From: Jannaschia rubra
GTDB lineage: Bacteria > Pseudomonadota > Alphaproteobacteria > Rhodobacterales > Rhodobacteraceae
DNA: 64,000 bases
Direction of reading: 5' to 3'
Assembly: GCF_001403735.1 (NCBI RefSeq)
Contig: NZ_CXPG01000013.1
Location: 124,001-188,000, forward strand
Below the pieces are notes generated by a model that saw only the letters and a list, made by a program, of their open reading frames with translations, did not search any database and was not told where the DNA came from. Every line of letters begins with the position of its first letter. Positions within the stretch are counted from its first letter, which is position 1. Shown piece by piece: positions 7,962-46,781 of this stretch. A program made the translations under genes and the position numbers.

Positions 7962-9102
<1,141 letters not shown>

Positions 9103-9116
9103 GAAACAAGAAGATC

Positions 9117-9572
9117 ATGCTCGACGACATCGACCGCCGCATCCTGCGTCGCTGGCAGGCGGACCCCGACATGACGGCGGCCGACCTCGCGGCGGCCATC
9201 GGCCTGCCGGCGGCAACCGTCGCACGTCGGATCGAACGTCTGCGCGAGGCCGGGGTGCTGCGCGGCGTGCATAGCGTCATCGATTGGACGGCCCTTGGCT
9301 ATGCGGTCGAGGTTTCGCTTCGTGTCCAGCTCGACAAGACGGCACCGCGCGCCTTCGACACCTTCATGGCCGCGGCCCGCAAGGTGCCCGAAGTCACCGA
9401 GATGCAGACGTTCCTCGGCCGCGTCGACCTGCGCTTGACCGTGATCGCCCGCGACATGGCGCATTGGCAGAGCCTCTACCGCGATGCGATCCTGACCCTG
9501 CCGCATATCGCCGAGATCGAGGCGCTGATGCATGTCGCGACCGTCAAGACCGACCAGACGCTGCCGATCTGA
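9117..9572 (+). CDS. Lrp/AsnC family transcriptional regulator (first of a tandem pair)
   Basis: A 151-residue DNA-binding regulator. Residues ~1-60 form the helix-turn-helix (LDDIDRRILRRWQADPDMTAADLAAAIGLPAATVARRIERLREAGV), and the remainder is the alpha-beta RAM/effector domain (FMAAARKVPEVTEMQTFLGRVDLRLTVI). Family members form octamers and respond to amino acids. It is divergent from ilvC, and its TGA overlaps the ATG of the second regulator by one base, so the two are coexpressed and may form mixed oligomers. The shared upstream region carries several dyads. Neither effector nor target can be read from sequence. Confidence 0.93.
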   Translation: MLDDIDRRILRRWQADPDMTAADLAAAIGLPAATVARRIERLREAGVLRGVHSVIDWTALGYAVEVSLRVQLDKTAPRAFDTFMAAARKVPEVTEMQTFLGRVDLRLTVIARDMAHWQSLYRDAILTLPHIAEIEALMHVATVKTDQTLPI

Positions 9573-10027
9573 TGGAACCGCTCGACCCCAAGGACCGCGC
9601 GATCCTCCGCGTCGTGCAGACAAACGCGACCCTGTCGGCCGGAGCGGTCGGGCGCGCGGTCGGCCTGTCGCAACCGGCCGCCTGGCGTCGCCTGCGCCGC
9701 CTGCGTGACACCGGCGTGCTGCGCGGGCGGGAACTGTCGCTCGACTTGGAGAAACTGGGATTCGGCGTCACTGTCTTTCTGGGCATCAAGCTCGCCACGC
9801 GGGGCCGCGTCTCGCTCGACGATTTCGAGCGGGCGGTCTCGGCCATCCCCGAAGTGCGCCGCGTCGATCACGTTCTGGGGCGCTACGACTACCGCCTGCG
9901 CGTCACCGCCCGCGACCTGCCCGATTTCGAGCGCGTCCTGCGCCGTCGCATCATGGCCCTGCCCGGCGTGGGCGAGGTGGAGGCCAACGTCCTTCTGTCC
10001 GAGGAACGCCTGCCAGGCCCGATCTAG
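9572..10027 (+). CDS. Lrp/AsnC family transcriptional regulator (second of a tandem pair)
   Basis: Another 151-residue Lrp/AsnC protein, clearly paralogous in layout to the preceding gene but divergent in sequence: HTH in residues ~4-60 (DPKDRAILRVVQTNATLSAGAVGRAVGLSQPAAWRRLRRLRDTGV) and a RAM domain (FERAVSAIPEVRRVDHVLGRYDYRLRV). The start ATG overlaps the previous stop (TGATG), indicating translational coupling. Tandem Lrp pairs of this sort may act as hetero-oligomers; the close link with divergent ilvC suggests a branched-chain amino-acid signal (inference). Confidence 0.93.
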   Translation: MEPLDPKDRAILRVVQTNATLSAGAVGRAVGLSQPAAWRRLRRLRDTGVLRGRELSLDLEKLGFGVTVFLGIKLATRGRVSLDDFERAVSAIPEVRRVDHVLGRYDYRLRVTARDLPDFERVLRRRIMALPGVGEVEANVLLSEERLPGPI

Positions 10028-10068
10028 GCCACGCGCGCGACGGCCCGCGCGAAATCCCCGCGGCCCCT

Positions 10069-10097
10069 TTGCTTCCGCCCGCGCCCCGTGAAACAGT
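10069..10097 (+). promoter_or_regulatory. Putative promoter of the class V aminotransferase gene
   Basis: TTGCTT (10069-10074), 17-base spacer, AACAGT (10092-10097). The -10 box is only a moderate match. Confidence 0.35.
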
Positions 10098-10122
10098 GCG
10101 CCAAAAGCAGCGGAGATCCGAC

Positions 10123-11253
10123 ATGGCCCTTCTCGACACCATCGACCCGCAGGGTCTGGACGAATTCTCGGTCGTCTTCACCGACCGGTCCCTCAATTCC
10201 ATGAGCCAGGCCTTTCAGCAGGTCATGCGCGACCTTCATGCTGGGCTGGCCGAAGTCTACAACGCCGACCACGTCGTGATCGTCCCCGGCGGCGGCACTT
10301 TCGGGATGGAGGCCGTTGCCCGGCAGTTCGGGCAGGGCGCCAAGGCGCTGATCGTGCGGAACGGCTGGTTCAGCTATCGCTGGTCGCAGATCCTGGAGGC
10401 CGGGGCCTTCACCGAAGGGACCGAGGTGGTCAAGGCGCGCCAGTCCGGCAACGACAGTCGCAGCCCTTTCGCCCCGCCCCCCATCGCCGATGTCACCGCG
10501 CGTATCCGCGAGATGCGCCCCGACGTCGTCTTCGCCCCGCACGTCGAGACCTCGGCGGGCGTGATCCTGCCCGACGACTACATCCGCGCGATGGCGGAGG
10601 CCGCGCATGAGGTCGGCGCCCTGATGGTGCTCGACTGCATCGCCTCGGGCTGCGTCTGGGTCGACATGAAGGACACCGGCGTCGACATCCTTCTGTCCGC
10701 ACCGCAGAAAGGCTGGTCCGCCTCGCCTTGTGCCGGTCTTGTGATGATGTCCGACCGCGCCGTGGAGCGGATGGAGGGAACCACCTCCGACAGCTTCGCG
10801 ATCGACCTGAAGAAATGGCACGTGATCATGCAGGCCTATCTGAACGGCGGCCACGCCTATCACGCGACCATGCCAACGGATGCGCTGCGTGCCTTCCGCG
10901 ACACACTGGAGGAGACGCGGGACTACGGCTTCGCCCGCCTCAAGTCGGCGCAATGGGAACTTGGAACCCGCGTGCGCGAGATGCTGGCCGCCAAGGGCAT
11001 CCGGTCCGTCGCGGCCGAAGGCTTCGGCGCACCCGGCGTTGTCGTCAGCTATGCCCCGTCGCCCGAAGTGCAGTCGGGCAAGGCCTTCATGGCGCATGGG
11101 ATGCAGATCGCGGCCGGCGTGCCGCTGCAATGCGACGAGCCGGCTGACTTCTCGAGCTTCCGCATCGGGTTGTTCGGGTTGGACAAGCTCAAGGACGTGG
11201 ACGCCACGGTGAACCGTCTCGGCAGGGTGGTCGATCAGGTCTTCGCCGACTGA
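10123..11253 (+). CDS. Class V PLP-dependent aminotransferase (alanine/serine-glyoxylate type)
   Basis: A 376-residue soluble enzyme of the class V aminotransferase fold, related to alanine-glyoxylate, serine-glyoxylate and 2-aminoethylphosphonate aminotransferases. Visible features are the phosphate-binding region VIVPGGGTFGMEAVAR, the Asp/Cys pair of MVLDCIASGCVWVDM that positions the cofactor, and the Schiff-base lysine Lys196 in SAPQKGWSASP. I chose ATG 10123 (MALLDTID) with a GGAGA ribosome site (CGGAGATCCGAC); the longer reading adds a basic leader. The 3' end overlaps the convergent ubiH-like gene by 19 bases. The exact donor and acceptor cannot be set from sequence; alanine- or serine-glyoxylate transfer is the likeliest. 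Confidence 0.87.
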   Translation: MALLDTIDPQGLDEFSVVFTDRSLNSMSQAFQQVMRDLHAGLAEVYNADHVVIVPGGGTFGMEAVARQFGQGAKALIVRNGWFSYRWSQILEAGAFTEGTEVVKARQSGNDSRSPFAPPPIADVTARIREMRPDVVFAPHVETSAGVILPDDYIRAMAEAAHEVGALMVLDCIASGCVWVDMKDTGVDILLSAPQKGWSASPCAGLVMMSDRAVERMEGTTSDSFAIDLKKWHVIMQAYLNGGHAYHATMPTDALRAFRDTLEETRDYGFARLKSAQWELGTRVREMLAAKGIRSVAAEGFGAPGVVVSYAPSPEVQSGKAFMAHGMQIAAGVPLQCDEPADFSSFRIGLFGLDKLKDVDATVNRLGRVVDQVFAD

Positions 11254-12461
11254 ACATCGGGTCGGCGGCCCTGCGGGGTCTCCGTCGCACCGAGCCCAAG
11301 GTGCATGAGCGCCCGCCGGATCGGCGGGACGTCGTGGAACGCCGCGACGCCCGCGCGCCTCAGCCGTTGCACCGGCACCAGTCCGGCAATGGAGCTTCGA
11401 TTGAGAAGGTCGATCCCCGCCATCCGCAGCGCCACGTCGGCCTGGCGCGCCCGCGCGTAGGCATCGAGCATCGAGTCCGATCCGATCTCTCCCGTCGCCG
11501 CAAGGTCACGCAACGTGGCGATGTCCTTCAACGAGGTGTTCAATCCCTGTGCGCCGATAGGGGGCATCGCGTGCGCGGCCTCCGCCACCAAGGCAAGGCG
11601 CCGCGCCGTGAACCGCCCGGCCAGCACCGACAGGATCGGCCATGCGGCGCGCCCGGGCACCAGGCGAAGATGACCCAGAACATCCGCAGACCGCTCGTTC
11701 GCAGCAGCCGCGAAGTCCGCATCGGACATCTCCATCCGGGCCTGCTGGATCGCGGCATCGTCCATCCAGACCACGCCCGACCGATGCTCCCCCTCCCGAT
11801 CCGGCAGCGGCACGAGTGTGAAGGGGCCGCCCGAGCGATGCACCTCGACCGAGACATCCTCGTGCGGGCGATCATGGGCGACGGCGAAGACGATCGCGGT
11901 CTGGCCATAATCCACCCGCCGCACGGGGATGTCCGCCATCCGCCGCAAAGCGCTGTCGCGCCCGTCGCAGGCCACGACAAGCCGCGCGGTCAGGCGCGTC
12001 CCGTCCGACAGGGTGACGCGCGCCGCGGCATTGCGGCGGAGCATCGCCGTAACCGAAAGGCCGAACCTCAGATCGACGGTGTCGAGCGAGGAGGCCCGGT
12101 CGAGCAATGCACCCCGCAGCGCCCAATTCGGAAAGTTCCAGCCGAAGGGCGCGTCGGATATGTCGCGGGCATCGAAGTCGCGAACCACCGGATCGGGCAT
12201 CGCCGCATCGACGATCCGCATCTTCCAAAGCGCGGTGCCGCGCGGCGCCAGCCCGTCCCAGGCACCGGCCCGCTCCAGCATGGTGCGGGCGGGTTGCAGC
12301 AGCGCGGTGGTCCGAAGGTCAGCGCCCGGCGCGTCCTCGCCCGTGACCGGGGGGGCAGGGTCCACCAGGACGACGCGATGACCCTCCGCGCCCAAGGCGC
12401 AGGCGGCGGCCAGTCCGGAGGGCCCGGCCCCGGCGATCAGGATATCGGTGTCGAATGTCAT
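11235..12461 (-). CDS. ubiH: UbiH/UbiF family FAD-dependent ubiquinone hydroxylase
   Basis: A 408-residue flavoprotein monooxygenase of the UbiH/COQ6 family, which hydroxylates the ring of ubiquinone precursors at the membrane face. It opens with the FAD-binding GxGxxG (GAGPSG, residues 11-16) and DP(A) strand end, has the middle DG motif (ACDGRDSALRR) and the second FAD motif as AEAAHAMPPIGAQGLN, where the usual GD is AE, a variant I associate with this clade. Which ring position it acts on cannot be told. The ATG is only 7 bases downstream of a reasonable -10 box, so the mRNA may be leaderless. The 3' end overlaps the convergent aminotransferase gene. Confidence 0.88.
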   Translation of the reverse strand: MTFDTDILIAGAGPSGLAAACALGAEGHRVVLVDPAPPVTGEDAPGADLRTTALLQPARTMLERAGAWDGLAPRGTALWKMRIVDAAMPDPVVRDFDARDISDAPFGWNFPNWALRGALLDRASSLDTVDLRFGLSVTAMLRRNAAARVTLSDGTRLTARLVVACDGRDSALRRMADIPVRRVDYGQTAIVFAVAHDRPHEDVSVEVHRSGGPFTLVPLPDREGEHRSGVVWMDDAAIQQARMEMSDADFAAAANERSADVLGHLRLVPGRAAWPILSVLAGRFTARRLALVAEAAHAMPPIGAQGLNTSLKDIATLRDLAATGEIGSDSMLDAYARARQADVALRMAGIDLLNRSSIAGLVPVQRLRRAGVAAFHDVPPIRRALMHLGLGATETPQGRRPDVQSAKT

Positions 12462-12467
12462 GCGCGA

Positions 12468-12496
12468 CAGCTAGGCCGCGCGGGCTTCAGGTTCCA
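12468..12496 (-). promoter_or_regulatory. Putative promoter of the ubiH-like gene
   Basis: Minus-strand TGGAAC (12496-12491), 17-base spacer, TAGCTG (12473-12468). The expected start of transcription falls at or next to the ATG (12461), which has no Shine-Dalgarno sequence. Confidence 0.4.
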
Positions 12497-13134
12497 GAGG
12501 CCAGAATGCCGCGCAGGAATCCTGTCAGGTCGGGTGCGTGATGATGCACATGGGCAACATCCGCGCGCAGGGGCGCGACGTGAACCGTCGCCAGACCCAT
12601 CTCGTGAGGCACAAGCAGGTTGCGGGCGCTGTCCTCGAACATCGCGGCACGGGTCGGGTCGAGACCGTCGCGGCCGAACACACGCCGATAGGCGGCCCGG
12701 TCGGGCTTGGGTGCGTAGCCTGCATGTTCGATCCCGTGGATCGCGTCCCAGAGACCGTCCAACCCGCGTGCGGCCAGAACCCGGTGGGCGTAGGGGGCCG
12801 TCCCGTTGGTGTAGATGACCTTGCGGCCGGGCAGGGCTACGATGGCGGCTCGCAGGTCCGGGTCGGGTGACAGGACCGAAAAGTCGATGTCGTGCACATC
12901 CTCCAGGAACGGTGCCGGGTCGGCGCCATGCTCACGCATCAATCCTGCGAGCGTCGTGCCGTGATCGTGCCACCACCGCGCCCGCAGCCGGTCGGCCTCG
13001 GCCAGCGACACGTCGAGGGCCGAGACGATCCAGCCGACCATCCGCGCCTCGATCTGCGGAAAAAGCGGGGCGGAGGGCGGATAGAGGGTCTCGTCCAGGT
13101 CGAAGACCCAGGTGGTGATGTGATCGAAGGGCAT
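12487..13134 (-). CDS. HAD-family pyrimidine 5'-nucleotidase
   Basis: A 215-residue HAD hydrolase. Motif I is FDLDETLYP with nucleophile Asp12 and general acid Asp14; motif II Thr is in VIYTNGTAPYA; motif III Lys is in YAPKPDRAAY; motif IV acid is MFEDSARNL. The DLDETLYP start and YTNG are typical of the subgroup annotated pyrimidine 5'-nucleotidase, which dephosphorylates UMP/CMP-like nucleotides. Start ATG 13134, with AAGG upstream. It ends 25 bases upstream of the ubiH-like start on the same strand, with that gene's putative promoter overlapping its 3' end. Confidence 0.9.
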   Translation of the reverse strand: MPFDHITTWVFDLDETLYPPSAPLFPQIEARMVGWIVSALDVSLAEADRLRARWWHDHGTTLAGLMREHGADPAPFLEDVHDIDFSVLSPDPDLRAAIVALPGRKVIYTNGTAPYAHRVLAARGLDGLWDAIHGIEHAGYAPKPDRAAYRRVFGRDGLDPTRAAMFEDSARNLLVPHEMGLATVHVAPLRADVAHVHHHAPDLTGFLRGILASGT

Positions 13135-13206
13135 CGACGGCGAACCTTGCGAATGTCTCGGGCCGGGTTTGGCGGGCCGGTCACGGGCGGTCAAGGCTCC
13201 GAACGG

Positions 13207-13244
13207 TTGCCGGGCGCGCGGCGGGGCGATAGCGTTCATCGCCC
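13207..13244 (+). promoter_or_regulatory. Putative gntR promoter with overlapping operator dyad
   Basis: TTGCCG (13207-13212), 17-base spacer and TAGCGT (13230-13235) form a promoter candidate. A perfect 7-bp inverted repeat, GGGCGAT (13224-13230) and ATCGCCC (13238-13244), straddles the -10 box, as expected for an autorepressing GntR regulator. Confidence 0.5.
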
Positions 13245-13274
13245 GACAGAGGGGCGGCCAGACGACGGGGTGCC

Positions 13275-13910
13275 ATGGTCCAGATCGCGCAGAAGGATGC
13301 ACATGCGCTGATCCTCGATGCGATCGACCGGGGCGATTTTCGTCCGGGCGACCGTCTCGTGGAGAGCGAGCTTGCCGATCGTTTCGGCGTATCGCGGACC
13401 CCGGTGCGCGAGGCGTTGCAGCGACTAGAGACGCAGGCCGTTCTGATGCGCGACGGCCGCTCCCTGATCGTGGCGACGTTGAACCACGATCAGATGGCGG
13501 AACTTTACGCCGTGCGGACGGAGCTTGAGGCATTGGCCGCGCGGCTGGCCGCGCAACATGCGGCCCGCGAGGAAATCGTCGTCCTGCGTCAGATGGTCGA
13601 CGAGGACGAGGCGCTGCTGGGCGACGCGCATGCGCTTGCCCGGGCCAATCGCCGATTTCACGGCCAGATCCATCTTGCCTCTCACAACCGCTATCTCGTC
13701 CAGCAACTCGGGACGGTCCATCGGTCGATGGCGCTGATGGCCACGACCTCGCTCGCGGCCGAGGGCCGGGGAGAGGCTGCTCTGTCCGAGCATCGCGCCA
13801 TCGTCGAGGCGATTGCCCGACGCGACGGCGATGCCGCGGCGAATGCCCTGCGGGAACATCTGAGCCGCGCTTTCGAGACCCGATTGAGGGAAGAGGCCCG
13901 ACGTCTCTAG
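13275..13910 (+). CDS. GntR family transcriptional regulator (FCD/FadR subfamily)
   Basis: A 211-residue repressor-type protein. Residues ~5-70 are the GntR winged helix (FRPGDRLVESELADRFGVSRTPVREALQRLE), and residues ~80-205 the all-helical FCD effector domain. Its likely metal ligands are visible: Asp near LVQQ-preceding helix, His of RRFHGQIHLASHN, His of SEHRAIVEAI and His of LREHLSRAF. FCD regulators respond to organic acids and sugar acids. No cotranscribed enzyme follows: the next gene is convergent. The target is unknown; a dyad over its own -10 box suggests autoregulation. Possible distant targets in the window are the sugar-acid-type genes at 37-40 kb (speculative). Confidence 0.93.
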   Translation: MVQIAQKDAHALILDAIDRGDFRPGDRLVESELADRFGVSRTPVREALQRLETQAVLMRDGRSLIVATLNHDQMAELYAVRTELEALAARLAAQHAAREEIVVLRQMVDEDEALLGDAHALARANRRFHGQIHLASHNRYLVQQLGTVHRSMALMATTSLAAEGRGEAALSEHRAIVEAIARRDGDAAANALREHLSRAFETRLREEARRL

Positions 13911-14016
13911 GTGGCGGTAAGGTGCCTTGCCGCTGGTCTCCGGAAAGCAACCTGCGCCTCGGTCGACTGTGCGGCGCGGGCCAGCCGACAACGGTGCAAG
14001 GGGTCGACCCGCGTTC

Positions 14017-16056
14017 CTATCCGCCGTGCATCATCCGGGGGCGGATGCCGCCGTCCGCCTGCGATACCATCTGCTCCAAGGCCCCGATCCCGGCGCCGTC
14101 GGCACCGCCGAAGTGGCCGTGGCTGGTCTTGTCCCAATGGAAGGGCCTTACGACGATTTCCTGCAGGGCCTTCAACGCAGCCAGGGTCGCCAGCGGGTAG
14201 TAGAGTTCGAGCGTCGGAATCCACTTTCGCAGCGACCGATGGTGCGGGGTCGCGCATCCGATCCATGCGAGCGACATCGACAGGAGACCGCCCGATGCCA
14301 TGACGATCCCGATGGCGAGCAGCCCGTTGCCGGGAAGCCAGTCCACGATGGGATGATGCACGCCGAAAGGGATGACGACGGTGGACCAGAGCGCCGGCAT
14401 GAGGAGCGCGTTCAGGATCGATCCCATGAACATCAGATGGAACCCGAAGAACCGCCGCGGCCCGAGATCGCGCCACAACTGGACCGGACGGCGGGAATGG
14501 ACGGCCCAGGTCAGGATATAGCCCTTCATCCAGCGCGACCGCTGCTTGACCCAGGCGAGCGGGGAGGCGTTCGCCTCCTCCAGCGTCGTCGTGTTGATGA
14601 TCTCGGTCCGGTAGCCGAGCCGCGCGAGGCGCACACCCAGGTCAGCATCTTCGGTCACGTTGTGCGCGTCCCAGGCCCCGATCCGCTCCAGCGCCGTCCG
14701 CCGGAAGAAAAGTGTGGTCCCCCCGAGCGGCACCACGAGACCCATGCGCGCGATGCCGGGAAGCACCAGCCGGAACCAGTTGGCGTATTCGATGGTGAAG
14801 CAACGGGCCATCCAGTTCCGGGTCGGATTGTAGTAATCGAGAAGCCCCTGCAGGCAAGCGACCCGGGCCGGAGCGGCCTGGAATCGCGTGGCGACGGTCA
14901 GAAGCTGATCGGGGGCGGGCGCATCCTCGGCATCGTAGATCCCGACGATATCGCCACGCGCGAAGTTCAGCGCATAGTTCATTGCGCGCGGTTTCGTCCG
15001 CGGCTGCCCGTCGGGGACCGGCACGACGCGCATCCATCGCGGCAGCGTGGCGCGGCCAAGAGCGTCGAGCGTGGCGCGGTCGCCCTCCTCGACCACGAGG
15101 CAGATGTCCAGAAGTTCGCGCGGATAGTCGAGCCGCGAGAGCCGTTCGGTCAGCGGCCCCGCGATGTCGGGCTCATTGTGGAGCGGCACGAGGACGGTGA
15201 TGACCGGCAACTTTCGCGCCGCCTCCTCGGCCGGGCGCACGGACGTGAATCCCGGGCCCCGCCGGCGAAGGGCCAGAACGGCGGCGACGCGAAGCCCGAG
15301 GTTCGCGCACATCACCATCAGCCCTGCCGCGGTGGCGATCCGCAAGGCCATTGCGGGCCAGATCGTGATGGCGAGCAGCGTCGTCAGCAGTGCGATGGCC
15401 AACAGTGCCGCACCGGGTCGGGCGCGGAACAGGCGGCAGCTCATGCCTTCGGGGACGCGACATTCCGCGGCTCGAGCCAGCGCCCGGCCATGTACCTCAT
15501 GCATGCGCGCGTCGAGGGCGGTATCCGTCACCACCGCGAACAGGCAGTTGTCGAACTCGGGCGGGAGAGCCGCGCGAAGATCGTCCAGTGCCTCGGGGCG
15601 CGCGGTGGCGATCAGGACGCGCCCGCCGGTGCGGTTCCAGGGCAGCGCCCGGAAGGTGAGGGCGAGGTGCAGCGGCAGGCTGCGGGCCAGGGTGTCCATC
15701 GCCGGGTATCCCACGGGCGCTGGGCCCGCCTGGCCCATGCCGCGCTGCCGGCCCAGAGCCTCCGCCAGGGTCTCCTCCGACACGAGACCTCGGCGGAGGA
15801 GCACATCTCCAAGTCGCGCCGACAGCCGTCGCTGCAGGATCAGCGCGCGGGCCAGTTCGGAGGCATCGACCGCGCCCATCTCCAGCAGGATTTCACCGAG
15901 CTTGGGTCGCCGAACGTAGGTCTGCCGCCGAAACAGCAGACCCTGATCGCCTGCTCCGGGGGAGGGCGAAACGCGCGACCGCGCTCCGGGGGACAGACCG
16001 GCATCGCCCGGAGAGGGATTTGGCGCAAGCGCGGCGGAAACAGGAGACGCGGCCAT
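14017..16056 (-). CDS. Family 2 glycosyltransferase with N-terminal MshEN (c-di-GMP-binding type) domain
   Basis: A 679-residue inner-membrane protein. Residues 1-50 are a Pro/Ser-rich linker. Residues 52-104 match the GspE-N/MshEN domain: two 24-residue motifs, KLGEILLEMG...LILQ (52-75) and RLGDVLLRRG...LGRQ (81-104), separated by exactly five residues, the layout described for c-di-GMP-binding MshEN. Two helices follow (~216-262), then a processive-type GT2 domain with VPLHNEPD (291-297), DAED (375-378), TED (468-470) and QRSRW (505-509), then three or four C-terminal helices. It likely polymerises or transfers a surface polysaccharide in response to c-di-GMP (inference); substrate unknown. 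GAGG ribosome site before ATG 16056. A CtrA-like site lies about 50 bases upstream of the start. Confidence 0.9.
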   Translation of the reverse strand: MAASPVSAALAPNPSPGDAGLSPGARSRVSPSPGAGDQGLLFRRQTYVRRPKLGEILLEMGAVDASELARALILQRRLSARLGDVLLRRGLVSEETLAEALGRQRGMGQAGPAPVGYPAMDTLARSLPLHLALTFRALPWNRTGGRVLIATARPEALDDLRAALPPEFDNCLFAVVTDTALDARMHEVHGRALARAAECRVPEGMSCRLFRARPGAALLAIALLTTLLAITIWPAMALRIATAAGLMVMCANLGLRVAAVLALRRRGPGFTSVRPAEEAARKLPVITVLVPLHNEPDIAGPLTERLSRLDYPRELLDICLVVEEGDRATLDALGRATLPRWMRVVPVPDGQPRTKPRAMNYALNFARGDIVGIYDAEDAPAPDQLLTVATRFQAAPARVACLQGLLDYYNPTRNWMARCFTIEYANWFRLVLPGIARMGLVVPLGGTTLFFRRTALERIGAWDAHNVTEDADLGVRLARLGYRTEIINTTTLEEANASPLAWVKQRSRWMKGYILTWAVHSRRPVQLWRDLGPRRFFGFHLMFMGSILNALLMPALWSTVVIPFGVHHPIVDWLPGNGLLAIGIVMASGGLLSMSLAWIGCATPHHRSLRKWIPTLELYYPLATLAALKALQEIVVRPFHWDKTSHGHFGGADGAGIGALEQMVSQADGGIRPRMMHGG

Positions 16057-16099
16057 GTCTGGACCTCGGGAATTGCGATTCCCGCGACCATGGTCGGAC

Positions 16100-16124
16100 G
16101 GGTCTTAACGCTTGGTTAAGACCC
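16100..16124 (-). promoter_or_regulatory. CtrA-type site TTAA-N7-TTAA within a 10-bp inverted repeat
   Basis: GGGTCTTAAC (16100-16109), loop GCTTG, GTTAAGACCC (16115-16124) is a perfect dyad. It contains TTAA (16105-16108), 7 bases, TTAA (16116-16119), the full CtrA consensus, and on the minus strand TTAACCA matches 7 of 8 bases of the extended form. It lies 49-63 bases upstream of the MshEN glycosyltransferase ATG and just after the carA stop, so a carA terminator hairpin is the alternative. Confidence 0.5.
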
Positions 16125-16132
16125 CGGCCAAT

Positions 16133-17278
16133 TCACCCCGCCCGTGTCGCCATCGCCGCGGCGAAGTCGTCGAACAGATAGGCGCTGTCCTGCGGGCCGG
16201 GACTGGCTTCCGGGTGGTACTGAACCGAGAACACCGGCCGCCCCGTCAGCCGGATGCCGCAGTTCGACCCGTCGAACAGGGATACATGCGTCTCCTCCAC
16301 CCCTTCGGGCAGGGATTGCGCATCCACGGTAAAGCCGTGGTTCATCGACGTGATCTCGACCTTGCCGTCCGCGCGCCGCTGGACTGGATGGTTCGCGCCG
16401 TGATGGCCATGGTTCATCTTGACCGTCTTCGCCCCGAGCGCCATCGCGAGCATCTGGTGCCCGAGACAGATCCCGAAGACGGGCAAGGCGGAGTCCACCA
16501 TCTCGCGGATCATGGGAACGGCATAGGCGCCGGTCGCCGCCGGATCGCCCGGACCGTTCGACAGGAAAAGACCGTCAGGGTTCAAGGCCTTGACGTCCTC
16601 GGACGTGGCTGTGGCGGGCAGGACGGTGACGTCGCAGCCGACGGAGGCCAGTGAGCGCAGGATGTTGCGCTTGGCGCCGTAGTCGATGGCCACGACCTTG
16701 AACCTCGGATTGTCCAATGTGCCGAAGCCCTCGGGCCAGGCCCATTTCGTCTGGTCCCAGCGATAGGATTGGGCGCAGGTGACTTCTCCGGCCAGGTCCA
16801 TGCCCTCCAGTCCCCGGAAGGCCCGCGCCCGGGCGACCAGCGCCTCGATGTCGAAATCGCCGTCGGGATCGTGCGCCAGCGCCACATGCGGCGCCCCCTG
16901 CTGGCGGATCGCGCGGGTCAGGCGGCGGGTATCGACGCCGCCCATCCCGATGCGCCCGCGCGCGGCCAGCCATCCCTCCAGATCGCGCGTGGCGCGCCAG
17001 TTCGACGGCTCCGTCGGATCCCACCGGACGACCATGCCTGCGGCGACCGGGTCGGCCGCTTCGTCGTCCTCCTCGGTGGTGCCGGTGTTGCCGATGTGGG
17101 GGAAGGTGAAGGTCACGACCTGTCCGGCATAGCTGGGGTCGGTCATGATCTCCTGATAGCCCGTCATGGCCGTATTGAAGCAAAGCTCGGCCACGGCGAC
17201 CCCGGTCGCGCCGAACCCGCGGCCCATGAAGATCGTCCCGTCGGCGAGGGCGAGACAGGCGGTCGGCTTCTGGGGCAT
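16133..17278 (-). CDS. carA: Carbamoyl-phosphate synthase small subunit (glutaminase)
   Basis: The glutamine amidotransferase subunit that supplies ammonia to CarB for carbamoyl phosphate, used by arginine and pyrimidine synthesis. It has 381 residues, the normal length. The N-terminal CPSase_sm domain reads from ACLALADGTIFMGRGFG through FPHIGNTGTTEED; the class I amidotransferase domain has the nucleophile Cys271 in GICLGHQ and the catalytic pair in QYHPEASPGP. ATG 17278 (MPQKPTA) is chosen for its GGAG at -10; a longer reading adds an Ala/Pro leader. carB is not in the window. The gene is divergent from yqeY, with a clear promoter in between. Confidence 0.97.
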   Translation of the reverse strand: MPQKPTACLALADGTIFMGRGFGATGVAVAELCFNTAMTGYQEIMTDPSYAGQVVTFTFPHIGNTGTTEEDDEAADPVAAGMVVRWDPTEPSNWRATRDLEGWLAARGRIGMGGVDTRRLTRAIRQQGAPHVALAHDPDGDFDIEALVARARAFRGLEGMDLAGEVTCAQSYRWDQTKWAWPEGFGTLDNPRFKVVAIDYGAKRNILRSLASVGCDVTVLPATATSEDVKALNPDGLFLSNGPGDPAATGAYAVPMIREMVDSALPVFGICLGHQMLAMALGAKTVKMNHGHHGANHPVQRRADGKVEITSMNHGFTVDAQSLPEGVEETHVSLFDGSNCGIRLTGRPVFSVQYHPEASPGPQDSAYLFDDFAAAMATRAG

Positions 17279-17323
17279 GGGGCTCTCCGGGGCAGGGGCG
17301 GCGATGGCGGGCAAACTCGCCGG

Positions 17324-17352
17324 GTTCTATGGACGGCGCCCCGGCCCGTCAA
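17324..17352 (-). promoter_or_regulatory. Putative carA promoter
   Basis: Minus-strand TTGACG (17352-17347), 17-base spacer, TAGAAC (17329-17324). A leader of about 40 bases precedes the carA ATG. Confidence 0.6.
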
Positions 17353-17394
17353 CCATCGGAACCCGGACGTGCCGGCGAGTGGGCCGCGAAGGAT

Positions 17395-17423
17395 TTGCCC
17401 ACGGGGGCCGCATGGGCTAACAC
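17395..17423 (+). promoter_or_regulatory. Putative yqeY promoter
   Basis: TTGCCC (17395-17400), 17-base spacer, TAACAC (17418-17423), 33 bases before the yqeY ATG. Confidence 0.45.
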
Positions 17424-17456
17424 TCGGTCCCTGGAAAAGCGGAACGGGACAGTCTC

Positions 17457-17909
17457 ATGGACTTGCGAGAACGGCTGAGCGCACGCCTCAAGGAGGCGAT
17501 GCGCGACAAGGATACGCGACGGATCGGAACGCTGCGCCTGATCAACGCGGCCATCCAGGACCAGGATATCGCCCTTCGGACCGAGGGGCGCACGGTCGGC
17601 GACGCCGAGGTCACGGCGATCCTGGCCAAGATGGTCAAGCAGCGGCAGGAATCGGCCCGCGCCTATGAGGAGGGCGGGCGGCTCGAACTCGCGCAGGCCG
17701 AACTGGACGAGATCGGCGTGATCGAGGAGTTCCTTCCGAAAAAGCTGTCCGATGCGGAAATTGACGCCGCCGTCGATGCCGCCGTGGCCGAGACGGGCGC
17801 GACCTCGGTGCGCGACATGGGCAAGGTCATGGGCGTCCTCAAGGCGCGCTACCCGGGGCAGATCGACTTCGGCGCCGTGGGACCGATGGTCAAGGACCGC
17901 CTGACCTGA
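17457..17909 (+). CDS. yqeY: GatB/YqeY domain protein
   Basis: A 150-residue helical protein with the GatB/YqeY tail domain over nearly its whole length (MDLRERLSARLKEAMRDKD, then LRLINAAIQDQDIA, KQRQESARAYEEGGR and EEFLPKKLS). The domain occurs in the tRNA-dependent amidotransferase subunit GatB, where it binds tRNA; stand-alone YqeY proteins have no firmly established function. Divergent from carA, a neighbour arrangement I know from other alphaproteobacteria. The AI-2E permease gene follows on the same strand after 76 bases. Confidence 0.93.
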   Translation: MDLRERLSARLKEAMRDKDTRRIGTLRLINAAIQDQDIALRTEGRTVGDAEVTAILAKMVKQRQESARAYEEGGRLELAQAELDEIGVIEEFLPKKLSDAEIDAAVDAAVAETGATSVRDMGKVMGVLKARYPGQIDFGAVGPMVKDRLT

Positions 17910-17985
17910 ACCTTGACGCGTTCCGCGCCGCCTTGAACGGGCGGTCGTGCGCGGGCATCTAGGGCCGGTCGGCGAAAGGGCGGAG

Positions 17986-19077
17986 ATGGCATTGTCGAGA
18001 CGGCAACAGGTGATCTACTGGGGATTGGCCGCTGCGCTTTTCCTGGTGCTGCTCTGGTATCTGGGGCCGGTGCTGCTCCCCTTCATCGTGGGCGGCGCCA
18101 TCGCCTATATCCTCGATCCGTTGGCCGACCGGCTGGAGGCCCTCGGCCTGCCCCGGGTCGCGGCGACGGCCATCATCACGCTGATTGCGGTGACGGGCCT
18201 GATCGTGGCGGTGGCCTTCCTCATTCCCACCCTGATCGAGCAGACGAACGCGCTGGTGCGCCTTGCCCCCGAGTATTTCAGCGCCCTGCGGGCTTGGCTG
18301 ACGCTCCGGTTCCCCGCGCTGGTCGCCGAAGGCGGCATCGTCCAGACGGGCCTCGCCGACCTGGGCGAGGTGATCCGCGCGCGCGGCGGGCAACTGGCGC
18401 AGCAGGTTCTGGCCGGAGTCTTCGGGGTGGTGAACGCGGTCGTCTTCATCGTCGTGGTGCCCGTCGTCGCCTTCTACCTGCTGCTCGACTGGGACGAACT
18501 GGTGGCGCGGGTCGACGACCTGCTGCCCCGCGACCATGTGGGCACGATCCGGCGCATCGCGCTCGACATCGACCGGACGCTGGCGAGCTTCGTACGCGGG
18601 CAGTTGACCGTCTGCCTGATCCTGGGGACGTTCTATTCCGTCGCGCTGATGCTGGTCGGGTTGCAGTTCGGGCTGGTCGTGGGGGCCATCGCGGGGCTCA
18701 TCACCTTCATTCCCTATGTTGGTGCCCTGGTGGGCGGGGTGCTGGCCATCGGGCTGGCCCTCTTTCAGTTCTGGGGCGACTGGACGTCGATCGGCCTCGT
18801 CGCCGCGATCTTCGTGGCGGGACAATTCCTCGAAGGCAACGTGCTGACGCCCAAGCTGGTGGGCGGATCGGTGGGCCTGCATCCGGTGTGGCTTCTGTTC
18901 GCGCTTTCGGCCTTCGGGTCGATCTACGGCTTCGTTGGCATGCTCGTCGCGGTGCCCGTCGCCGCCGCCCTGGGCGTGGTCGCGCGGTTCGGCGTGGCCG
19001 AATACAAGCAGAGCGTCCTTTACCGGGGTCAGCCCCCGGACCCGGCCCTTCCGGCACCGGCCGATCCGCGGGTCTGA
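17986..19077 (+). CDS. AI-2E family transporter (PerM/UPF0118)
   Basis: A 363-residue integral membrane protein with about eight helices. The family signature is clear: VVPVVAFYLLLDWDEL, the SFVRGQLTVCLILGTFY helix and LEGNVLTPKLVGGSVGLHPVWLLFALSAFGSIYGFVGMLVAVPVAA. Members have been linked to autoinducer-2 export or Na+/H+ exchange, but the substrate here is unknown. ATG 17986 is chosen, with AAAGGGCGGAG immediately upstream. The next gene, hdaA, begins 3 bases after the stop, so the two form a transcription unit. Confidence 0.92.
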   Translation: MALSRRQQVIYWGLAAALFLVLLWYLGPVLLPFIVGGAIAYILDPLADRLEALGLPRVAATAIITLIAVTGLIVAVAFLIPTLIEQTNALVRLAPEYFSALRAWLTLRFPALVAEGGIVQTGLADLGEVIRARGGQLAQQVLAGVFGVVNAVVFIVVVPVVAFYLLLDWDELVARVDDLLPRDHVGTIRRIALDIDRTLASFVRGQLTVCLILGTFYSVALMLVGLQFGLVVGAIAGLITFIPYVGALVGGVLAIGLALFQFWGDWTSIGLVAAIFVAGQFLEGNVLTPKLVGGSVGLHPVWLLFALSAFGSIYGFVGMLVAVPVAAALGVVARFGVAEYKQSVLYRGQPPDPALPAPADPRV

Positions 19078-19080
19078 TCC

Positions 19081-19731
19081 GTGGCACAGCTCTCCATCGA
19101 CCTGCCCCGGCTCGATGCGCGGGGACGCGAGGATTTCATGGTCTCGACGTCGAACGCGCAGGCCGTGGCCCTGGTCGACGCCTGGCCGGACTGGCCCGGC
19201 GGGAGGCTCGCGCTGGTCGGGCCCGAAGGGTCGGGCAAGTCGCATCTGGCCGGCATCTGGGCGGCGGAGGCCGATGCAACCCGTTTGCGCGCCGCCGACC
19301 TGACGGCCCGCGACGCGCCCGCACTGGCCCACCGCCCCGTCGTGCTGGAAGACGCCGACCGCGGCGTGGACGAGGAGGCGCTGTTTCACCTCTGGAACGC
19401 CTGCGCGGGGCAGGAGCACGGCCTTCTGCTGACCGGGCGCCGCCCGCCATCCGACTGGCCCGTGCGCCTGCCTGACCTGAAAAGCCGGCTCGCCTCGCTG
19501 ACGCCGGCCGTGATCGACGACCCCGACGACACGCTGCTGTCGGTGCTGCTGCTCAAGCTCTTCGCCGACCGGCAGCTTCAGGTGAAGCCCGCGCTGATCG
19601 GCTTCCTTCTGCCGAGGATGGAACGGAGCTTTGCCGCCGCGCGCGCGCTGGTCGACCGGCTCGACGCGGCATCGCTGGAACGGGGCGTGGCGCTGAACCA
19701 GGCGCTGGCGCGCGACCTGCTGGACAGGTGA
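19081..19731 (+). CDS. hdaA: HdaA/Hda-like DnaA regulatory inactivator
   Basis: A 216-residue DnaA-related AAA+ protein lacking DnaA's DNA-binding domain. With the sliding clamp it stimulates ATP hydrolysis by DnaA and so limits replication initiation. The N-terminus ([11 protein letters not shown]) includes the QLSIDLP-type clamp-binding peptide (QL[SP]xxLP form), Walker A is GPEGSGKSH, the Walker B-like strand is [11 protein letters not shown], and sensor residues lie near [11 protein letters not shown] and PDLKSRL. The start is GTG, 3 bases after the AI-2E stop, so translation is coupled. ppk follows; its promoter candidate overlaps the 3' end of this gene. Confidence 0.92.
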
Positions 19732-19749
19732 CTCCGCGCAGCCTAGCCT
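19721..19749 (+). promoter_or_regulatory. Putative ppk promoter
   Basis: TGGACA (19721-19726), 17-base spacer, TAGCCT (19744-19749); it overlaps the hdaA stop codon and lies 38 bases before the ppk ATG. Confidence 0.4.
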
Positions 19750-19787
19750 GTGACATCCCCGCCACAGACCGACGATGGGCGCCAACC

Positions 19788-21980
19788 ATGCTCGACAAGT
19801 CCGCCGTTCCGCCCGCCGATTTCCTGAACGCCCCGATCCCCGCGCCGGTGACGCTGGACGATGAGCGGACGACGACGCCCAAGCGATTCTTCAACCGCGA
19901 ACGCAGTTGGCTCGCCTTCAATTCCCGCGTGCTGGAGGAGGCCGAGAACCCCCGCGTGCCCTTGCTGGAGCGGCTGCGGTTCCTGTCGATCTCGGCGGCG
20001 AACCTCGACGAATTCTACACCGTCCGGGTGGCGGGCCTGCGCGAACTGGCGCGCGCCGGAAACAGGACGCCCGCCGCCGACGGCCGCACCCCCGCCGAAC
20101 AGCTTGCCATGATCGACGAGACGGCGATGCACCTGCTGACGCATCAGCAGGAGGTCTGGAAATCCCTTCTGGCCGAATTGGGCGAGAACGGCATTCGCCT
20201 TCTGTCGGCGGACGACCTGAAGGGCCCCGAGCGGGATGCGATGGCCGAACATTTCCTGACACAGGTTTTCCCGATCCTGTCGCCGCTGGCCATCGACCCT
20301 GCGCATCCCTTCCCCTTCATCCCGAACGAGGGTTTCGCCGTCGCGGTCGAACTGGAACGCCGGTCCGACCGGCGCACGCTGCGGGCGCTCCTGCCCATTC
20401 CCGCGCAGATCGACCGCTTCATCCGCCTGCCCGACGACGAGGGCACGATCCGCTTTTTGCCACTGGAGGAGTTGTTGCTGATGCAGATCGAGCAGCTGTT
20501 CCCCGGCTACGTCCTGCGCGGCCAATGCGCATTCCGCGTGTTGCGCGACAGCGACCTCGAGGTCGAGGAGGAGGCGGAGGATCTGGTCCGCGAGTTCGAG
20601 ACGGCGCTGAAGCGCCGTCGCCGGGGGGAGATCATCCGCATGAAGATCACCGCCACCGCCTCGGATTCCCTGCGCCGGACCATCGTCGAGGAGATCGACG
20701 TGGACGAGCATGAGGTCATCACGGTCGACGGGCTGATCGGGCTCGCGGCGCTCAAGGAACTGGTGGTGGACGACCGCAAGGACCTGCTCTGGCCCAGCTT
20801 CACCCCCCGCGTGCCCGAACGGGTGCAGGACCACGACGGCGACATGTTCGCGGCCATCCGGCAGAAGGACATGCTGCTGCACCATCCCTACGAGACCTTC
20901 GACATGGTCGTCCGCTTCATCGCGCAGGCGGCCACGGACCCCGACGTGCTGGCGATCAAGCAGACGCTCTACCGCACCTCGCGCGACAGCCCCGTGGTGG
21001 CCGCCCTGTGCGAGGCGGCGGAGGCGGGCAAGCAGGTCACGGCGCTGGTGGAGTTGAAGGCCCGCTTCGACGAGGCGGCCAACATCCGCCAGTCCCGGCG
21101 GCTGGAGCGTGCGGGCGTCCACGTCGTCTACGGCTTCACCCGCCTCAAGACCCACGCCAAGATCGCCACCGTCGTCCGGCGCGAGGGTGACAGGCTCGTG
21201 ACCTACAGCCATTTCGGCACCGGCAACTATCACCCGATCACCGCGCGCATCTATACCGACCTGTCGCTGTTCACCTGCGATCCGCGCCTGGCGCGCGACG
21301 CGACCAAGGTGTTCAACTTCATCTCGGGCTATGCGCCGCCCGACGGGCTGGAGAACCTGTCGATCTCGCCGTCGCAGATGAAGGACCGCCTGCTCGCCTC
21401 GATCGCGGGGGAGGCCGACCATGCGCGCGACGGACGTCCGGGCGCGATCTGGGCCAAGATGAACGCGCTGGTGGAACCCGACGTCATCGACGCGCTCTAC
21501 GATGCGAGCCGCGCCGGGGTGCGGATCGACCTTGTGATCCGCGGCATCTGCGGGCTGCGCCCCGGCGTCACCGGCCTGTCCGAGAACATCCGCGTGAAGT
21601 CGGTCGTCGGGCGGTTCCTGGAACATTCGCGCATCGTCTGCTTCGGCAACGGTCACGGCCTGCCATCGCGCCGGGCCCGGGTCTACATCAGCTCCGCCGA
21701 CTGGATGGGGCGCAACCTGAACCGCCGGGTCGAGACGCTGGTGGAATGCGTGAACCCCACGGTCAAGGCGCAGATCGTCAGCCAGATCATGGCCGCGAAC
21801 CTGGCCGACGTGGCCCAGAGCTGGGTCTTGGGCCCGGAAGGCGACTGGTCACGCCCCGACCTGACGGACCTGGACAACCCCTTCAGTTGCCACCGCTTCT
21901 TCATGGAGAACCCGTCGCTTTCGGGCCGGGGGTCGGCCGGCGCACGCGACGTTCCGGAACTGACGCACAGCCCGGATTGA
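19788..21980 (+). CDS. ppk1: Polyphosphate kinase 1
   Basis: A 730-residue enzyme that reversibly polymerises the gamma-phosphate of ATP into polyphosphate. The four PPK1 domains are recognisable: N-terminal [20 protein letters not shown], the head domain, and two phospholipase D-like C-terminal domains. The autophosphorylated histidine is most likely His456 in [12 protein letters not shown], and [21 protein letters not shown] and [17 protein letters not shown] are highly conserved. The start at 19788 (MLDKSAVPP) is chosen over an in-frame upstream ATG overlapping hdaA. It is followed by ppx after 82 bases, so synthesis and degradation of polyphosphate are encoded together. Confidence 0.97.
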
Positions 21981-22062
21981 CGGGCCGTCGCGCATTGACC
22001 CGGCGGCCCCGGGCGTGCCAGACCGCCGCCATGCTCGACCGCCACCCCGGGGGATGCTGCGA

Positions 22063-23610
22063 ATGACGGACGACGCCCAGGACCCGGAGGGATACGGCCC
22101 CTTCGGCGCGCCCCTGTTCGATGGCCCGGAGGCGCGCGCCCTGCGCCGGGTGGGCGTGATCGACGTCGGCTCCAACTCCGTCCGCATGGTGGTTTTCGAC
22201 GGCGCCGCCCGCTCGCCCGCCTATTTCTACAACGAGAAGATCCTCTGCGGGCTGGGGGCGGGTCTTGCCGATTCCGGCAAGCTGAACCCCGAAGGCCGCG
22301 TCCGCGCCCTGGCCGCGCTCCGGCGGTTCGCGATCCTTGCGCGGGGGATGGAGGTGAACTCCCTCACCGCCGTCGCCACCGCCGCCGTGCGCGAGGCTGA
22401 CGACGGCCCGGCCTTCGAGGCCGAGGTGACGGCGCGGACGGGCCTGAAGCTCTGGGTCATCGACGGCCCGCAGGAGGCGCGGCTGTCGGGGCAGGGGGTG
22501 CTGCTCGGCTGGCCCGGCGCCGAAGGGCTGATGTGCGACATCGGCGGCAGCAGCATGGAACTGGCGGAGTTGTCGGGCGGCGAGGTCGGTGCCACCGTCA
22601 GCGGCCGTGTCGGGCCGCTCAAGCTGCAGGACATCCGCGGCAAGGGCGCCCGTCGCACCGAGATCGAGGCCCGCGTGGCCGAGATGGCCGAGGCGCTGGG
22701 TCGCGACCGCTACGACCGGCTCTATCTGGTGGGCGGGTCCTGGCGGGCCATCGCGCGGATCGACATGGAGCGGCGGGGCTATCCGCTGCACGTCCTGCAC
22801 GAATACATCATGCAGCCCAGGGACCTGCGCGCCACGCTCGATTTCATCGAGGGCGCCGATATGGCCGATCTGGGCAAGCGCACCGGAACCAGCATGGCGC
22901 GCATGTCGCTCGTCCCCATCGCGGCCGAGGTGCTGTCGCGCACCGTCCGCACCTTCCGCCCGAAGGAGATAGCGGTATCGAGCTACGGCATCCGCGAGGG
23001 CCTGCTGTTCGAACAGATGCCCGAGCTGCTGCGCGCGCGCGACCCGCTGATCGAATCCTGCCGTGCGTCGGAGGCGGCATCGGCGCGGCTGCCGGGCTTC
23101 GGCCGGGTGCTCTATCGGTTCGTGTCGCCGCTGTTCTCACGCGCGGACGACCGGCGGCGGCGGCTGATCCGGGCATGCTGCCTGCTGCATGACGTCAGCT
23201 GGCGCGCGCATCCCGACTACCGCGCGGAGATCTGCTTCGACAACGCGACCCGTGCCAACCTGGGCGGCCTGACCCATTCGGAGCGGGTCTATCTGGGCCT
23301 GGCCCTTCTCCACCGCTATCGCAACAAGCACGCGGGGTCACCGTTCGAGGCGCTGGCCCCCCTGCTCGACGAGGGCGACACGCGTGAGGCGGAGGTCGTG
23401 GGCAAGGCCATGCGCTTCGGGGCGATGTTCTCGGCGCAGGATCCCGCGCTCATGGGGACGCTCAAGCTCTTTCCGAAGAAGGGCGAGCTGCTTTTGACAC
23501 TCCCGCCCGGCGATGGCGAGGCGCTTTATGGCGAGGTGGCCGAGGCCCGGTTCAGGTCGCTCGCCGCCGCCCTGTCGGCCGAGCCCATCGTCCGGGTCGC
23601 CCGCGCCTGA
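22063..23610 (+). CDS. ppx: Exopolyphosphatase (Ppx/GppA family)
   Basis: A 515-residue phosphatase of the actin/ASKHA fold that removes terminal phosphates from polyphosphate or pppGpp. The two N-terminal ASKHA domains show GVIDVGSNSVRMVVFDG and the second phosphate loop CDIGGSSMELAEL, with the activating Glu region TAAVREADDG. The C-terminal third is an HD-like helical domain (LIRACCLLHDVSWRAHPDYR). The exact start is uncertain: ATG 22054 and 22063 are in frame; 22063 is preceded by GGGGGA at good spacing. Adjacent ppk1 supports polyphosphate as a substrate. Confidence 0.93.
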   Translation: MTDDAQDPEGYGPFGAPLFDGPEARALRRVGVIDVGSNSVRMVVFDGAARSPAYFYNEKILCGLGAGLADSGKLNPEGRVRALAALRRFAILARGMEVNSLTAVATAAVREADDGPAFEAEVTARTGLKLWVIDGPQEARLSGQGVLLGWPGAEGLMCDIGGSSMELAELSGGEVGATVSGRVGPLKLQDIRGKGARRTEIEARVAEMAEALGRDRYDRLYLVGGSWRAIARIDMERRGYPLHVLHEYIMQPRDLRATLDFIEGADMADLGKRTGTSMARMSLVPIAAEVLSRTVRTFRPKEIAVSSYGIREGLLFEQMPELLRARDPLIESCRASEAASARLPGFGRVLYRFVSPLFSRADDRRRRLIRACCLLHDVSWRAHPDYRAEICFDNATRANLGGLTHSERVYLGLALLHRYRNKHAGSPFEALAPLLDEGDTREAEVVGKAMRFGAMFSAQDPALMGTLKLFPKKGELLLTLPPGDGEALYGEVAEARFRSLAAALSAEPIVRVARA

Positions 23611-41836: not shown

Positions 41837-43006
41837 ATGACAGAAATCGCGCATGGCGCGGTCGCCGTCCTCCCGGGCGAGGCCATCGTTTCCCGTTGGT
41901 GGAGAACGCTCGACAAGGGCACGCTGGGCGCGCTGGTCCTGCTGTTCGCCGTCGGGCTTCTGCTCGGGTTCGCGGCCTCCGTGCCCCTAGCCGAACGCAA
42001 CGGCCTGCCGCCCTTCCACTACGTCTATCGCCAGGCGGTCTTCGGCACGCTCGCCTTCGGCGTGATGCTCGCCACCTCGATGCTCTCGCCCAACATGGTG
42101 CGGCGGCTGGGGGTGATCGGCTTCTTCGTCGCGGCCGCCGCGCTGATGATGCTGCCGGTGCTGGGCACCGACTTCGGCAAGGGGGCGGTGCGGTGGTATT
42201 CGCTGGGGTTCATCTCGCTCCAGCCATCCGAATTCCTCAAGCCCGTGTTCATCATCATGACCGCCTGGCTGATGGCCTCGGCGTCCGAGCCCAATGGCCC
42301 GCCGGGCAAGGTCATCAGCTTCGCCATCCTCGTCGTCGTCATCGCCTTCCTCGCGCTGCAACCCGACTTCGGGCAGGCGATGCTGGTCGTGGTCGCCTGG
42401 TCGGCCATCTATTTCGTCGCGGGCGCGCCGATCCTGCTCCTGACGGGCGTGGTGGGCTGCGTCGCGGCGGTGGGGTTCGTGGCCTACAACAACTCCCAGC
42501 ACTTCGCCCGCCGCATCGACGGTTTCCTGTCGCCCGACGTCGATCCACGCACGCAGATGGGCTATGCCATCGACGCGATCCGCGAGGGGGGCTTCTTCGG
42601 CACCGGCGTCAACGAGGGACGGGTCAAGTGGATCCTGCCCGATGCGCACACCGACTTCATCATCGCCGTCGCGGCCGAGGAATACGGCCTCGTCATGGTG
42701 CTGTTCGTGGTGGCGCTGTTCGCCTTCATCGCCGCGCGCAGCCTGATGCGTCTCTGCGTGGAGCGGGATACCTTCATCCGCCTGGCGGGCACCGGACTGA
42801 CCGTGCTTCTGGCCAGCCAGGCGTTCATCAACCTCGGCGTGGCGGTGCGCCTGCTGCCCGCCAAGGGCATGACGCTGCCCTTCGTCAGCTACGGCGGGTC
42901 CTCGCTCATCGCGATGGGGATATTGACGGGGATGCTGCTGTGCTTCACCCGGACCCGGCCGCAGGCCGAGATCGGGGATCACCTGCTCTCGAACGGATAC
43001 CGCTGA
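41837..43006 (+). CDS. ftsW: Peptidoglycan polymerase FtsW (SEDS family)
   Basis: A 389-residue SEDS protein with ten predicted helices, the septal peptidoglycan glycosyltransferase that pairs with FtsI. Signature parts are [37 protein letters not shown], the catalytic-Asp loop [18 protein letters not shown] and the end motif [17 protein letters not shown]. It opens the division/wall cluster, with murG 10 bases downstream. The N-terminus of about 30 residues is cytoplasmic. Confidence 0.97.
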
Positions 43007-43016
43007 AAGGGCTCGC

Positions 43017-45517: not shown

Positions 45518-45525
45518 CGGGCGGC

Positions 45526-45765
45526 ATGGCGGGCGTCGGGCTCTGCCTCTGGGTCGTGGCGGCCTGGGTGCTGATGGTCACGCTTCGCGGCCGCCAGACA
45601 TGGTATGCCGCGGGCGGGCTGATCGTGACGGGCGTGCCGCTCCTCGTGTGGCTCGGCCGGTCCATGGGGGCGGGCTGGCTCCTCGTCGGGGTCGCGGTCC
45701 TCGCGCTCGTCCTGCGCTGGCCGCTGCGATACGCGCTTCGCTGGGCGCGGGGATTGCTGCGATGA
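45526..45765 (+). CDS. DUF2484 family small membrane protein
   Basis: A 79-residue, almost wholly hydrophobic protein with two or three helices ([50 protein letters not shown]) and a basic Arg-rich end. DUF2484 proteins sit between murC and murB in Rhodobacteraceae and have no known function; the position inside the wall cluster suggests a role in division or wall synthesis (inference). It overlaps murB by four bases (ATGA), so expression is coupled. Confidence 0.9.
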
Positions 45766-46694: not shown

Positions 46695-46781
46695 CCCGCA
46701 CCCCGCAACGGCCCGCGAGAGGCCGGGGAGACAAGAACAAGCCGAGGCACGAACGACCCGGCGAGGCGCAGGATATCGGGT

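Follow-up and report, generated by a model that had tools for sequence, protein, structure and literature searches.

The DNA examined here, a window of 64,000 nucleotides from the genome of Jannaschia rubra, holds a gene for a 679-residue protein in which an MshEN domain with two c-di-GMP-type motifs is followed by a pair of helices, a GT2 glycosyltransferase domain, and further helices (Table 1). A preliminary description of this DNA had given the coordinates of the two motifs, their lengths of 24 residues, the five-residue linker, the two helices, and the GT2 signatures; the coordinates, motif lengths, and linker are exact in the open reading frame. It had also spoken of a complete MshEN motif pair, which is borne out, and the strand and the C-terminal half of the domain (PF05157, residues 119 to 191) are supplied here. 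The first approximately 40 residues of the protein are modeled at low confidence. The first helix of the pair is taken as transmembrane, judged by its hydrophobic sequence only (alignments with BcsA start at about residue 230), and the C-terminal helices are taken as transmembrane from their alignment with BcsA.

Table 1. Position and basis of assignment of the features of the synthase gene and of its upstream neighbor; positions are those of the window
Feature	Position	Strand	Basis
MshEN-GT2 synthase gene, 679 aa	14017..16056	minus	ORF, domain and profile matches
c-di-GMP motif 1, residues 52-75 (KLG...L...L..Q)	15832..15903	minus	sequence, NF053729
c-di-GMP motif 2, residues 81-104 (RLG...L...L..Q)	15745..15816	minus	sequence, NF053729
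MshEN C-terminal subdomain, about residues 118-198	15463..15705	minus	PF05157 match at 119-191, fold match to 5htl
Helix pair, residues 212-232 and 234-264, putative transmembrane	15265..15423	minus	structure model
GT2 catalytic domain, about residues 284-520 (DAED 375, TED 468, QRSRW 505)	14497..15207	minus	Pfam, alignments
C-terminal helices, residues 524-636, putative transmembrane	14149..14487	minus	model and BcsA alignment
WDKTSH, residues 641-646	14119..14136	minus	sequence, orthologue alignment
carA, conserved upstream neighbor, outside the enzyme	16133..17314	minus	Pfam, synteny

No exopolysaccharide family was found by Pfam among the ten neighboring open reading frames from 7962 to 19731, one of which matched no family at all, in agreement with the earlier statement that the gene has no neighboring polysaccharide genes. 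With 20 further reading frames scanned, the nearest glycan-related set in the window is a peptidoglycan and cell division cluster about 26 kb away. This cluster is an ordinary one (ftsW, murG, a Mur ligase gene, murB, ddl, ftsQ, ftsA, and ftsZ, assigned by Pfam and gene order, on the plus strand at 41837 to 51634). Past carA as seen from the synthase gene, a polyphosphate kinase gene adjoins an exopolyphosphatase gene (19728 to 23607, plus strand).

An MshEN domain on a GT2 enzyme

Motif 1 reads KLGEILLEMGAVDASELARALILQ and motif 2 reads RLGDVLLRRGLVSEETLAEALGRQ, and the Arg/Lys, Leu, Gly, Leu, Leu, and Gln ligand positions are all present in both. The NCBIfam model NF053729, for the MshE-related c-di-GMP motif, matches residues 52 to 104 over all 53 of its positions at 51.4 bits (cutoff, 38), and the Pfam MshEN model PF05157 matches the C-terminal half of the domain at 32.3 bits (cutoff, 23.1). 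Set against the published c-di-GMP motif consensus for MshEN (Wang 2016, PMC5013675), motif 2 fits in full and motif 1 departs at two positions, with Lys in place of Arg at position 1 and Ala in place of a larger hydrophobic residue at position 11. A relaxed form of the published pair pattern occurs once in the six frames of the window and in none of 200,000 shuffles of residues 40 to 116, and a chance origin of the motif pair was rejected.

A structure search with the whole protein model barely tested the MshEN part, and the domain (residues 45 to 205) was therefore modeled and searched separately (pLDDT, 93.5). Its best match was MshE with c-di-GMP (5htl; Z score of 15.7, 2.7 Å over 137 residues), with which the c-di-GMP-bound PilF domains tie (Z scores of 15.2 to 15.6) and behind which XpsE follows at 14.0. 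XpsE is an MshEN protein that has been reported to have lost c-di-GMP binding (PMC5013675), and the fold alone is therefore no proof of binding. A sequence profile retrieved PilF, PilB, and MshE chains. The motif pair that had been proposed to stand before the GT2 domain is thus confirmed by profile, fold, and shuffles, and the J. rubra protein carries a real MshEN domain, with both subdomains, on a cellulose-synthase-like GT2 enzyme.

The GT2 domain is matched by Pfam PF13641 at residues 285 to 512 and has the signatures DAED (375 to 378), TED (468 to 470), and QRSRW (505 to 509). Residues A376, E377, D378, T468, E469, Q505, R508, and W509 are invariant in all 135 family orthologues analyzed, as are W, K, T, and H of WDKTSH; D375 is invariant in both orthologue alignments, and D470 is invariant in one and at least 90% conserved in the other. 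The full-length model (pLDDT, 88.6; pTM, 0.88) has as its best whole-model match PcManGT (6yv7, titled a mannosyltransferase) with a Z score of 28.4. Its GT domain, together with the helices, matches BcsA with c-di-GMP bound (9fmz) at 25.5 and hyaluronan synthases at 20 to 23, and residues from about 230, helices included, align with BcsA to about 669 and with the hyaluronan synthases to about 660. The BcsA-like arrangement in the model and the QxxRW signature favor a processive synthase; the PcManGT match leaves a lipid-linked product possible.

Assignment as the cellulose synthase BcsA was rejected: TIGR03030 (CelA) reaches 51 bits against a cutoff of 699.1, neither the protein nor the genome has PilZ, and the J. 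rubra genome has no match to BcsB, which is present in 15 of 199 family genomes. Other NCBIfam models also stay far under their cutoffs, the best being PRK15489 (69.7 of 537) and EpsU (62.7 of 700).

Carriage of the synthase and decay of its sensor

The nearest named relatives are those of five Jannaschia species, at 59 to 72% identity among the best 80 of 578 named loci. In the Rhodobacteraceae the synthase gene is near-core, being found in 180 of 199 genomes. Flanks were available for 121 loci, and 111 of these have carA on the same strand no more than 500 bp upstream (median gap, 82 bp). Within flanks of about 6 kb at these 121 loci, genes for YqeY (105 loci), an FAD-monooxygenase (103), a cluster at the GntR position (103), an aminotransferase (75), and ilvC (71) recur. 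Conserved carA synteny and near-core carriage fit an old, vertically kept gene. In two genomes without the GT, G100 and G156, the site is empty and GntR directly follows carA, the aligned ends being 49 and 24 bases apart; a third, G147, also lacks the GntR and HAD genes at the carA site. Two family orthologues with short open frames of 443 and 414 aa, at loci L120 and L139 (genomes G096 and G008), align only from a start at about residue 262-268 onward and encode a GT without MshEN.

Outside the family, homologues have candidate partners. The synthase is matched in 49 of 387 alphaproteobacterial genomes, 43 of them outside the family, and the neighbors of 20 loci from these 43 were clustered into single-linkage groups. 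Directly upstream of the synthase gene, 4 of the 20 distant loci have a member of a BcsB-like cluster, and the one member tested matches PF03170 at 40.5 bits. A response-regulator/weak-GGDEF cluster is found in 8 of the 20; the four members tested gave a receiver with GGDEF at 24.9 bits, a receiver alone, a GGDEF match below the cutoff, and no match. It is possible that L272:4422-5540 (GGDEF, 24.9 bits) and L282:9783-10655 (17.0 bits, subthreshold) are local c-di-GMP partners or degenerate cyclases. A cluster of secreted-looking proteins of about 210 to 390 aa also lies near the GT in 8 of the 20 distant loci, and no Pfam family was found in the two members tested; the 265-aa protein at L273:11358-12152 is one member. 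Such a protein could be an export partner and, read from its sequence, possibly an outer-membrane barrel. These neighbors support a polysaccharide role and suggest that the family of J. rubra has lost such partners or never acquired them; no outer-membrane export partner was identified for the J. rubra synthase. It had been suggested that the enzyme may work alone; given the likely genomic partners of some of the distant homologues, this may hold in this bacterial family only.

The J. rubra genome has four GGDEF and three EAL domain matches. No PilZ match was found in the genome or in the synthase protein, and the only PF05157 match in the genome is the synthase gene. Because PF05157 represents chiefly the C-terminal half of MshEN, proteins with the motif half only could escape this search; a protein search found no second motif-half protein in the genome. 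Across the family, GGDEF is present in 186 of 199 genomes and PilZ in 49. The GT is missing from all 13 genomes without GGDEF and from 6 of the 186 with it, which over the 199 genomes, with kinship ignored, gives a Fisher P value of 3e-16. The 19 GT-less genomes were searched again, the first search, which found the other 180, serving as the control. Placement of 15 of these 19 on a carA tree that is poorly resolved, midpoint rooted, and has long branches put 10 of the 15 near the base; the remaining genomes (G093, G106, G145, and G198) gave no carA match, and three of them are among the 13 without GGDEF. The nested genomes G100, G147, and G178 have neither GT nor GGDEF and look like separate co-losses; G156 has GGDEF without the GT, and the absence from G190, where carA stands at a contig end, may be an assembly gap. 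One independent GGDEF/GT pair is found on well-supported branches of the carA tree and five on the whole best tree; a sign test on the one pair gives a P value of 1, with too few pairs to reach significance. The co-loss of GGDEF and GT as a link of the synthase to c-di-GMP is suggestive only, and the tree lends it little independent support.

Retention of the sensor was assessed in 139 of the 180 matching family genomes (among the matches listed), from which four loci (L108, L112, L113, and L129) were dropped for broken reading frames, leaving 135 orthologues. For the NF053729 counts, the most upstream ATG was used as the start where present, so that a few proteins that begin elsewhere may be truncated, and an E value of 7e-10 was taken as approximately the 38-bit cutoff. 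By this measure 56 of the 135 orthologues pass (39/70 in set A1 and 18/66 in set A2, the window being in both) and 79 fail. When the core positions are defined as the hydrophobic positions 2, 17, and 21 and Gly at position 3 of both motifs, 55 orthologues have no change, 20 have one, and 60 have two or more. Close relatives behave differently: NF053729 is passed by 38 of 45, the window included, in a set of 161-aa pieces (A4) that comprises the window and 44 of 78 other named loci from the best 80 of 578, two of the 80 having been dropped as short (A3). In three of the five Jannaschia relatives both motifs retain Lys/Arg, Leu, Gly, Leu, Leu, and Gln at the ligand positions; two of these three have Asn or Glu in place of the mid-motif Gly in motif 2. 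Position 1 of motif 1 is Ala in the relative L160, and in L161 the motifs are lost.

A tree of the GT domain requires 18 or more changes in the state of the core motif, and well-supported branches force 8 or more of them. Conservation at the ligand positions is higher than at MshEN_N positions drawn at random (permutation P = 0.006) and lower than in the GT domain. The relaxed Wang pattern is kept in both motifs by 19 of the 135 orthologues, and the strict pattern from Arg/Lys to Gln by 2, or by 25 when Pro or Asn is allowed at position 1. The strict pattern was rejected as a test of orthologues, being too strict, because NfrB of Escherichia coli, a proven binder, has a motif 1 with Pro at position 1, Gln at position 10, and Arg at position 24. 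Since NfrB binds despite these departures, departures in the orthologues are no proof of lost binding. Key residues across homologues, to which the preliminary description had looked, thus give a divided answer: most family orthologues fall below the model threshold, but most close relatives pass it. The window and most near relatives retain the sensor, and in many orthologues it has decayed, while the sampled catalytic residues are unchanged. Replacement by PilZ was not supported as the cause of this decay, with PilZ present in 10 of 55 core-intact and 25 of 80 decayed genomes (Fisher P = 0.11).

Proposed control by c-di-GMP and related systems

Control of a GT2 synthase by c-di-GMP through MshEN has already been published for NfrB, described in 2021 as a c-di-GMP-activated GT2-MshEN exopolysaccharide synthase (PMC8669469, PMC8669472), and glycosyltransferase fusions of MshEN had been noted in 2016 (Wang, PMC5013675). 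NfrB binds c-di-GMP with a Kd of 1.0 μM, infection by phage N4 needs both its GT and its MshEN residues, and homologues are described as occasional in alphaproteobacteria (PMC8669469); most single MshEN substitutions were without effect on N4 infection (PMC8669472). The two enzymes share a GT2 domain with DxD, TED, and QxxRW, an MshEN domain joined to it via helices that in J. rubra are putatively transmembrane, and a WDKTxH sequence (WDKTTH in E. coli NfrB, WDKTSH in J. rubra). However, NfrB (PRK11234/NF008411) has the GT2 domain first and MshEN at its C terminus, whereas MshEN is N-terminal in the J. rubra protein, and the NfrB gene lies in an nfrBA-ybcH operon whereas the J. rubra gene lies behind carA. 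With 45.5 bits against a curated cutoff of 1170 and the domain order reversed, the J. rubra protein was rejected as an NfrB orthologue.

BcsA resembles the J. rubra enzyme in its GT2 core, its helix arrangement, and its control by c-di-GMP, which for J. rubra is a prediction, but its sensor is PilZ (PMC5567048), which the J. rubra genome lacks along with any BcsB match. The ATPases MshE, PilB, and PilF have the same 53-residue motif pair and the whole MshEN fold, with an ATPase as the partner in place of a GT2 domain. BgsA of Sinorhizobium meliloti, compared by its description, is likewise a GT under c-di-GMP control without PilZ, but senses through a tail at its C terminus that lacks known c-di-GMP motifs (PMC5567048). 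No description of the present enzyme in Rhodobacteraceae was found in a literature search that was thin on subscription journals. New relative to the literature searched are a domain order that is reversed, a gene that is near-core in its family, a genome with neither PilZ nor a second Pfam MshEN match, and a sensor that has decayed repeatedly.

The J. rubra protein is probably a c-di-GMP-activated polysaccharide synthase of the inner membrane. In the scheme that we propose, the cytoplasmic N-terminal MshEN domain would bind one c-di-GMP between its two 24-residue half-sites, and binding would change the packing of MshEN against the cytoplasmic GT2 domain; we infer that this activates the enzyme rather than inhibiting it. 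The activated GT2 domain would then add sugars from a nucleotide-sugar donor, and the growing chain would be pushed out via a channel formed by the enzyme's own helices, as in BcsA and hyaluronan synthase. The direct c-di-GMP switch without PilZ that had been suggested earlier is supported by the MshEN ligand positions on a GT2 enzyme and by the absence of PilZ, but its principle was known from NfrB and its motif has decayed in many orthologues.

It is possible, though unlikely, that the enzyme is instead a nonprocessive GT2 with a lipid-linked sugar product, in which case c-di-GMP would control the synthesis of a glycolipid or glycan primer and not of a polymer. The mannosyltransferase PcManGT as the best whole-model match and the lack of BcsB in J. 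rubra and in all but 15 of the 199 family genomes are in keeping with such a product. However, Q, R, and W of QxxRW are invariant in every orthologue analyzed, and the NfrB study names DxD, TED, and QxxRW as signatures of processive GTs (PMC8669469). The long alignments with BcsA and hyaluronan synthases, at Z scores of 20 to 25, and the BcsB-like neighbors of distant homologues also speak for a polymer.

The sensor half may alternatively have become mostly structural, holding or dimerizing the GT, with little or no c-di-GMP control left in much of the family. We regard this as improbable, even with the precedent of XpsE (PMC5013675) and with orthologues that fall below the NF053729 threshold and change their core motif state so often on the GT tree. 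In J. rubra itself all ligand positions are kept, as they are in three of the five Jannaschia relatives (two of them with the changed motif 2 Gly), close relatives mostly pass the model, and presence of the GT follows that of GGDEF; NfrB, moreover, binds with a motif 1 that departs from the consensus at three positions (PMC8669469). Activation of a polysaccharide synthase by c-di-GMP thus remains our preferred reading.

For the family as a whole, we tentatively suggest that the synthase may be the ancestral and most widespread c-di-GMP output, tying one surface polymer to c-di-GMP, and that its sensor has decayed repeatedly while the synthase stayed intact. GGDEF is nearly universal in these genomes and PilZ is found in about a quarter of them, and the near-core MshEN synthase is a direct candidate for a c-di-GMP target. 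If the suggestion is true, the family is a natural series, with synthases switched by c-di-GMP at one end and forms of the same enzyme that do not depend on c-di-GMP at the other. With sensors that are intact, partly decayed, or lost on synthases that are otherwise conserved, a single protein family would allow the gain and loss of allosteric control to be measured.
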